Source: Doris montereyensis
Lineage: Eukaryota > Mollusca > Gastropoda > Nudibranchia > Dorididae
Direction: 5' to 3'
NCBI GenBank assembly: GCA_037039925.1
Contig: JAXRKP010000238.1
Coordinates: forward strand, 1 to 64,000
Length of the DNA: 64,000 bases
Under the pieces are notes generated by a model that saw only the letters and a program-made list of their open reading frames with translations, ran no database searches and had not been told where the DNA came from. The position numbers and the translations under genes were made by a program. Every line of letters starts with the position of its first letter. Within the stretch, counting starts at the first letter, position 1. Shown piece by piece: positions 16,511 to 63,747 of this stretch.

Positions 16511-16617
16511 TCACTGTGCCAGCGCCACCCGTGGTGTTGTCCCTTCACCTTGGAAGTTCATGTTGATCTCCCCAAGTCCTGCACTGTCTCGTCTGGAGGT
16601 ACATACATGTTAAGACT
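16511..16617 (-). CDS. Cadherin exon 65: C-terminal tail and stop
   Basis: The acceptor (tatcgcag) leads into SLNMYVPPDETVQDLG, then EINMNFQGEGTTPRVALAQ and TGA at 16511-16513. One base is missing in the GGGG run after QDL; without it the frame would stop early. The final residues do not form an evident PDZ ligand. No catenin-binding motif is seen. Confidence 0.65.

Positions 16618-63747: not shown

Follow-up and report, generated by a model that had tools for sequence, protein, structure and literature searches.

The 64,000-nucleotide stretch of Doris montereyensis DNA analysed here, referred to as the window, contains on its minus strand, from 63747 to ~16490, the 3′ part of a very large cadherin gene in which most of the linkers between cadherin (EC) repeats have a shortened R[ND]-x-[N/F]-x-P motif. 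In this gene and its relatives the linker is xRNxNxP, as opposed to the canonical xDxNDNxP, and one residue has been lost. An earlier note on this DNA had drawn attention to the arginine; what is described below goes beyond it in the shortening by one residue, the conservation of the family, the period of two repeats, the PCDH15-like domain at the membrane and the likely size of the gene.

A profile scan combined with frameshift-aware alignment revealed 28 A exons alternating with 28 B exons between 63747 and 23344, equivalent to 28 two-exon cadherin repeats (Table 1). The A exon encodes ~42 amino acids and carries the sequence ...FFxVNPxTG..., and the B exon encodes ~62 amino acids that comprise the second half of a repeat, the linker, and the first half of the next repeat; the A/B exon junctions are mostly phase-0. 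The 28th exon pair is followed on its 3′ side by a repeat with a furin-like RRRKRQ sequence, a canonical DINDNSP linker, the last repeat, a membrane-adjacent domain, a transmembrane (TM) helix and a cytoplasmic tail. The exon pieces total 2904 residues and are stop-free in the window translation (for B exon 11, one piece of three residues was fitted by eye), and a pseudogene was ruled out because no piece contains an in-frame stop. There are 24 frame breaks of the single-base type in 17 of the 56 exons, which look like indel errors of the 513-Mb draft assembly and not decay of the gene; their frequency, ~1 per about 370 coding bases, suggests an unpolished long-read assembly.

Membership of the cadherin superfamily rests on the repeat profile and not on the DxNDN motif. 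The Pfam Cadherin family PF00028 was above the cut-off in the window, with E values of 3.1e-38 and 5.5e-56 on two joined pieces (the window's own Pfam scan was made on pieces only), and it matched 30 stretches of the Aplysia relative P0001.

Other sequences in the window include long simple-repeat runs within introns of the gene (57476-58533 and 53400-53963), which give homopolymeric translations in several frames, and tandem repeats on the plus strand at 7445-10018 that translate as LMSEHDVIRFVNLP and variants. On the minus strand, the translation of 11726-12148 contains SPDFNPIEHLWDIIK, which we take from its motif to resemble a Tc1/mariner transposase fragment, and that of 11065-11520, again by motif, resembles the RNase H end of a non-LTR retrotransposon.

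Table 1. Parts of the cadherin gene in the window, all on the minus strand; A and B exons were located by profile scan and frameshift-aware alignment.
Feature	Position	Strand	Match
A exon 1	63619..63747	-	
B exon 1, linker RNPNGP	62550..62735	-	
A exon 2	61923..62060	-	
B exon 2, linker RNQFSP, frame breaks	61250..61436	-	
A exon 3	60712..60828	-	
B exon 3, linker RNPSQ.P, frame break	60167..60350	-	
A exon 4	59313..59435	-	
B exon 4, linker RDNLPP, frame break	58390..58576	-	
A exon 5	57255..57383	-	
B exon 5, linker RNVNGP, frame breaks	56689..56874	-	
A exon 6	55656..55781	-	
B exon 6, linker RIVDQPP (canonical length)	55102..55284	-	
A exon 7	54370..54498	-	
B exon 7, linker RNPNAP, frame break	53937..54118	-	
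A exon 8	52230..52364	-	
B exon 8, linker RDQFQP	51545..51730	-	
A exon 9	51273..51395	-	
B exon 9, linker RNPS.P, frame breaks	50445..50625	-	
A exon 10, frame break	49864..49985	-	
B exon 10, linker RSIAP, frame break	49013..49193	-	
A exon 11	48177..48299	-	
B exon 11, linker RNENPP, frame break, 5′ end by eye	47712..47892	-	
A exon 12	47251..47373	-	
B exon 12, linker RNQFAP	46627..46812	-	
A exon 13	46234..46362	-	
B exon 13, linker RNVNPP	45533..45715	-	
A exon 14	44838..44969	-	
B exon 14, linker RDEFPP	44066..44251	-	
A exon 15	43381..43500	-	
B exon 15, linker RNVNGP	42756..42938	-	
A exon 16	42027..42149	-	
B exon 16, linker RDTSLP, frame break	41293..41482	-	
A exon 17	40543..40671	-	
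B exon 17, linker RNLN.P, frame breaks	39350..39532	-	
A exon 18	38629..38757	-	
B exon 18, linker RDLFAP	38007..38195	-	
A exon 19	37248..37376	-	
B exon 19, linker RNANAP	36473..36655	-	
A exon 20	35832..35954	-	
B exon 20, linker RDSGPP, frame breaks	35336..35527	-	
A exon 21	34546..34674	-	
B exon 21, linker RNLFSP, frame break	33909..34095	-	
A exon 22, frame break	33307..33436	-	
B exon 22, linker RNSGRP	32726..32887	-	
A exon 23, starts at VSAVDSD	32092..32253	-	
B exon 23, linker RREGNP	31271..31450	-	
A exon 24	30767..30889	-	
B exon 24, linker RNAIAP, frame breaks	29965..30144	-	
A exon 25, frame break	29385..29533	-	
B exon 25, linker RNRFGP, 3′ end provisional	28540..28722	-	
A exon 26	27947..28069	-	
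B exon 26, linker RNPNAP, frame breaks	27122..27317	-	
A exon 27	26497..26664	-	
B exon 27, linker RNLNTP, 3′ end provisional	25135..25320	-	
A exon 28	24637..24768	-	
B exon 28, without R[ND] linker	23344..23463	-	
Part of next repeat and furin-like RRRKRQ (open frame, provisional exon limits)	22055..22330	-	
Canonical linker DINDNSP (open frame)	21300..21524	-	
Last cadherin repeat, two overlapping frames, provisional exon limits	19717..20006	-	PF00028 at E 0.12 only
Membrane-adjacent domain, first piece	19028..19168	-	i-E 1.2e-9
Membrane-adjacent domain, second piece	18339..18431	-	i-E 2e-4
Membrane-adjacent domain end and transmembrane helix	17356..17649	-	i-E 2.7e-20
Cytoplasmic juxtamembrane piece	17102..17206	-	i-E 1.3e-10
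Conserved tail QSLNMYVPPDETVQDLG	16570..16623	-	i-E 2.4e-8
Tail pieces GEINMNF and NPVYGK then stop, frame breaks	16491..16582	-	i-E 0.0012 and 0.31

The linkers named in the earlier note (RNPNGP, RNQFSP, RNVNGP, RNPNAP, RNANAP and RDLFAP) are all present in the exon list. The note had spoken of at least 28 linkers, and it was found that arginine is present in 27 of the 28 window linkers and R[ND] in 24, the other four being RIVDQPP, RSIAP, RREGNP and a C-terminal linker without the motif. Its claim that DxNDN has been lost holds for the array: 0 of the 24 scorable window linkers are canonical, and DINDNSP occurs only in the C-terminal repeat. Amid RN linkers, the linker of B exon 6 is of canonical length and has the second Asp (pattern R[IV].D.PP), and what are probably its counterparts occur in Aplysia P0001, Gigantopelta P0002 and Elysia P0005.

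The interval from the last strand to the conserved Pro was evaluated in a family set of 33 sequences, made up of the window model plus 32 proteins picked by hand, and in 12 control cadherins, likewise picked by hand; a linker was counted only if both anchor columns were aligned and a Pro stood at the end. The EC profile was seeded from the window repeats, and therefore the alignments lean toward the family. Of the 781 family linkers, 741 have an interval of six residues; the interval is eight residues in 3, seven in 28 and five in 9. In the controls it is seven residues in 321 of 326 and six in 5. Therefore, although the arginine reported in the earlier note is present, the simple Asp-to-Arg exchange proposed there was replaced by a shortened linker (741/781 versus 5/326). 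Because one residue has been lost, the register of the arginine is ambiguous, and it may stand at the first Asp or at the following x. The N-x-N-x-P spacing is that of N102-D103-N104-x-P106, in E-cadherin numbering.

Among the best 120 of 791 matches, the closest relative was Aplysia P0001, with 65% identity over the whole query. The identity to Aplysia and Elysia would point to a heterobranch gastropod as the source. Further molluscan relatives among these matches came from Gigantopelta, Haliotis, Elysia, Babylonia, Solemya, Patella, Tegillarca, Crassostrea, Mya, Sinanodonta, Biomphalaria and Liolophura, and the non-molluscan ones from the brachiopod Lingula and the nemertean Tubulanus. At least two short R[ND] linkers were present in 32 of 262 proteins, and all of these with an organism name (P0009, P0121 and P0126 carry none) are from molluscs, a brachiopod or a nemertean. 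The other 230 proteins had a single short R[ND] linker among 4415 linkers, of which 4212 were of canonical length and 168 were one shorter (8 letters), slightly more than in the 12 controls. The window linkers are not a product of chance, because very similar linkers follow one another in matching order in the Aplysia protein with 65% identity, and frame errors as the source of the RN motif were ruled out by the RN linkers in the predicted proteins of the relatives. Among the papers listed in searches of open full-text literature, none described R[ND]-linker cadherins, in keeping with the earlier note's failure to recognise a named subfamily.

We then scored the calcium ligands around each linker. 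Ligands were assigned to calcium sites by the general cadherin scheme, apart from the points referenced below, and D67 and Glu69 were taken to be ligands of sites 1 and 2. In the controls (n = 321), Glu at E11 was found in 98%, D67 in 89%, E69 in 84%, D134 in 98%, D136 in 98% and D195 in 91%. In the family R-linkers (n = 659), N or D follows the arginine in 638 (97%), the DxD motif is kept at D134 (629/646, 97%) and D136 (614/646, 95%), and the XDX Asp is kept at D195 (601/617, 97%). Glu is present at E11 in 442 of 616, position 69 has an acid in 411 of 640 (Asp in 376, Glu in 35), and the DRE Asp, D67, is present in only 14 of 638 (2%). Where the second linker Asp would stand, Leu (135), Pro (102), Gln (81) and Glu (70 of 659) are the most frequent residues; Asp is outside the eight most frequent, and the Glu could still serve a calcium. 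The 24 scorable window linkers have D67 in none, D69 in 13 and the XDX Asp in 23.

The earlier note had described the EC glutamate and the DxD motif as mostly kept, and this agrees with the window counts of 19/23 for Glu at E11 and 22/24 for each Asp. It had also called the calcium site half-retained, and the kept half can now be matched to site 3 and the lost half to sites 1 and 2. The calcium motifs are not all lost at these linkers, as DxD and XDX are kept in 95-97% of R-linkers. According to excerpts of a study on PCDH24, loss of DXE removes site 1, and site 3 is served by the side-chain carboxamide of a linker Asn together with the carbonyl of the last linker residue (PMC8691648). A putatively weaker calcium dependence of the R-linkers is plausible.

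Salt-bridge rigidification, another suggestion of the earlier note, is consistent with covariation within proteins between the arginine and the acids at E11 and position 69, although not every linker can form the same cluster, because position 69 is an acid in 411/640 only and alternates in the window. Using Mantel-Haenszel odds stratified by protein, an acid at E11 was found in 499/616 short linkers with R versus 34/71 without (odds 4.33, p~2e-7), an acid at position 69 in 411/640 versus 25/76 (odds 4.01, p~2e-7), and an acid at either in 583/616 versus 46/71 (odds 8.76, p 8e-11). Comparison columns in the same repeat went in the opposite direction (D134, D136 and D195, odds 0.40, 0.45 and 0.34; p 0.07, 0.04 and 0.04), and N143 (1.27) and D67 (0.85) were not associated with Arg. 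The covariation stayed when the two Lingula proteins were excluded (odds 4.28 and 3.7). These p-values are optimistic because related repeats are not independent, because the short linkers without R are few (82) and related, and because two comparison columns were nominally significant in the opposite direction (p 0.04). The covariation is what a salt-bridge cluster would give, and alignment noise or shared history may contribute.

The window repeats show a period of two. Repeat-repeat identity was 34.1, 33.4 and 33.9% at even lags versus 28.4, 28.3 and 29.7% at odd lags, and an even-lag excess was also found in Aplysia P0001, Haliotis P0012 and Solemya P0019. This pattern was absent from the lungfish FAT4 control, and it was weaker in a Ruditapes CDH23-like control (33.2, 35.2, 34.1, 35.0, 33.1 and 39.0 for lags 1-6). 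Consistent with this period, RNxN is present in 9/14 odd versus 1/13 even window linkers (p 0.004), and Asp69 in 10/12 odd versus 3/12 even linkers (p 0.012). From these alternations, the array seems to have grown by pairs of repeats.

At the membrane end, a profile of six family C-termini matched the PCDH15 membrane-adjacent domain and TM, weakly for 6c14 (E 9e-4, spanning profile positions 20-174) and at E 0.003 for 6c13; Pfam PCDH15_12th matched 1/6 members only, at E 0.09. The profile gave no match to CDH23 chains at E<=10, none of the CDH23-like proteins among the 262 matched the family membrane end below E 0.08, and the family membrane domain and tail were not found in the listed FATs. 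The oyster protein P0013 carries the family membrane domain; an echinoderm survey, as seen in excerpt, reported PCDH15 to be absent from oyster (PMC10734073). The same membrane domain, TM and tail occur in a partial krill protein (P0199; E 1.3e-25), whose linkers are of canonical length (3/3 scored). This arthropod protein suggests that the lineage in which the RN linkers arose formerly had normal linkers, and it offers a possible glimpse of the ancestral state. In 9 of the 11 family proteins that have this end (two being from Lingula), a basic site of the [RK]xKR type lies ahead of the last canonical linker, and the remaining 2 have KR alone, by eye. This furin-like site suggests that the ectodomain may be cleaved near the membrane.

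Upstream of the window on the same strand, the array continues to ~137 kb with 47 more B-exon groups, 41 of which have R[ND] linkers by our reading, so that R[ND] linkers are present in 65 of 75 exon groups in the window and upstream together. The most N-terminal upstream linkers are canonical (VIDIQDNVP and DRNDNAP, with FNDVNDNTP at 141 kb), and Solemya P0019 likewise has a hydrophobic N terminus followed by canonical and then RN linkers. Some of the upstream sequence consists of N; over the remainder of 63-163 kb that could be read, no second membrane-adjacent domain, TM or tail was found (best i-E 0.81). Because the array continues to ~137 kb and no further TM exon was seen, there is probably one gene of roughly 80 repeats, a reading based on predicted proteins and not on a transcript. 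At 4.5 nm per EC repeat, a value taken from an excerpt of PMC8691648, the protein would be about 0.35 µm in length if straight.

On balance, we lean toward the reading that the gene encodes a single-pass membrane cadherin of ~80 EC repeats, joined mostly by R-linkers that would each hold at most one calcium, at site 3 (through the linker Asn, DxD and XDX), with Arg salt bridges replacing sites 1 and 2. The Arg guanidinium would pair with the remaining acids, E11 and Asp69, in the space of these two sites, and built-in salt bridges, more than bulk calcium, would then hold the joints in place. The product would be a long tether anchored in the membrane: repeats of the calcium type would lie at its N-terminal tip and next to the membrane, R-linkers would make up the long middle, and the ectodomain may be cleaved near the membrane at the furin-like site. 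The PCDH15-like base suggests, as a lead only, microvillar or ciliary links. The sequences themselves display the anatomy, conservation and covariation, and we infer calcium number, stiffness, cleavage and tether role.

It is rather unlikely, in our estimation, that the R-linkers are calcium-free and the array a flexible chain, with the kept DxD and XDX acids being relics or structural. Such a state would account for the fall of D67 to 14/638 and of Glu69 to 35/640, and linkers that bind no calcium have been described in Drosophila N-cadherin, PCDH15 and LI-cadherin, according to the portions of these reports that were available (PMC8325961, PMC5120219, PMC8427231). However, 95-97% of R-linkers retain N/D102, D134, D136 and D195, as the controls do, whereas the calcium-free EC9-10 linker of PCDH15 has XEX, DYE, DXNDN, DXD and XDX all replaced (PMC5120219, in part). 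We regard as improbable the opposite reading, that the linkers bind calcium almost normally via backbone or shifted ligands and that this is an ordinary calcium-dependent cadherin: although most R-linkers retain E11, DxD and XDX, D67 is present in 2% of them, and the Arg adjoins the site and tracks its acids. AlphaFold2 gave a cadherin fold for two relatives, P0121 (pLDDT 77.8, pTM 0.35) and P0138 (pLDDT 84.3, pTM 0.58), and the best 50 Foldseek matches listed for the P0121 model were cadherins only. The P0138 model differed from the listed two-repeat cadherin structures by 4.5-6.5 Å over ~200 residues and from the bent PCDH15 EC9-10 by 13.3 Å over 211 residues; it is closer to most of them than to the bent structure and therefore extended, which speaks for near-normal binding, but the P0121 model fits two-repeat structures worse (7.0-9.6 Å). 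The two models disagree, their orientation confidence is low and they are calcium-free, and AlphaFold2 was set aside for joint geometry and Arg contacts.

As to the identity and extent of the gene, databases call the relatives 'protocadherin Fat 4-like', names that we take to be automatic, and three 'protocadherin Fat 4' proteins appear as settlement candidates in the excerpted text of an oyster paper (PMC6337334). This name and the frame breaks in 17/56 exons might suggest an ordinary FAT4-like cadherin whose RN reading results from assembly errors or wrong frames, which we find scarcely credible given the RN linkers of other species' predicted proteins. Furthermore, a Pfam scan of Aplysia P0001, which seems N-terminally incomplete, lacked EGF, LamG and catenin-binding families, including the classical-cadherin catenin-binding domain PF01049, and no EGF or LamG was among the listed domains of P0002-P0023. 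FAT4 membership was ruled out on the absence of EGF and LamG and on linkers that are not DxNDN. It also seems unlikely, somewhat more so than the calcium-free chain, that the upstream array consists of one or more separate tandem genes, leaving some 30 to 45 repeats for the window gene. Relatives are annotated as several proteins per contig, the upstream N stretch could hide a TM exon, and the repeats at about 116-134 kb are missing from Elysia P0005; yet this same protein maps in order from a canonical N-terminal repeat into the window repeats, and no membrane end was detected in the readable upstream DNA. In addition, two Haliotis proteins also map in order along the locus: P0012 covers about 134-80 kb, and P0003 begins near 89 kb and reaches the membrane domain. 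Over about 1,100 residues, P0003, counted from its start, and P0012, counted from residue 3120, have 765 exact 30-mers in common; therefore, although not identical throughout the overlap, the two probably represent one locus modelled twice.

Calcium-rigidified linkers are the textbook basis of cadherin mechanics and of the name, and a conserved family with dozens of shorter Arg linkers would show a second natural way to set the joint. We tentatively raise the possibility of a lophotrochozoan branch of cadherins in which a built-in Arg replaces two of the three calcium ions at some 65 or more joints of a protein of >8,000 residues, which would be among the longest cadherins and have a stiffness little dependent on extracellular calcium. 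The R-linker family provides natural variation with which the importance of the individual calcium sites could be tested, and all of it stands under what looks like a wrong automatic name. If the ~80-repeat protein is real, it is far longer than Fat, given as 34 repeats in the abstract of PMC11497213, and one may ask what it spans in molluscs, brachiopods and nemerteans.

In comparison with known systems, FAT4 and Fat-like proteins have a long EC array in common with the family and were second-tier matches with 24-27% identity among the best 120 of 791. Their linkers are DxNDN and nearly always have seven residues from strand to Pro, whereas the family has six, and the listed FATs have EGF and LamG families that P0001-P0023 lack. 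PCDH15 may resemble the family in having a membrane-adjacent domain followed by a TM (weak profile match to 6c14, E 9e-4), but PCDH15 and CDH23 differ from it in that the family has far more repeats than these tip-link proteins, and RN linkers that are one residue shorter. Drosophila N-cadherin, PCDH15 EC9-10, LI-cadherin EC2-3 and PCDH24 EC2-3 likewise have linkers in which the calcium motifs are partly or wholly missing (PMC8325961, PMC5120219, PMC8427231, PMC8691648). In the portions of those reports available, single linkers are altered, each differently, whereas in the family dozens of consecutive linkers are altered with one motif, one length and an Arg.
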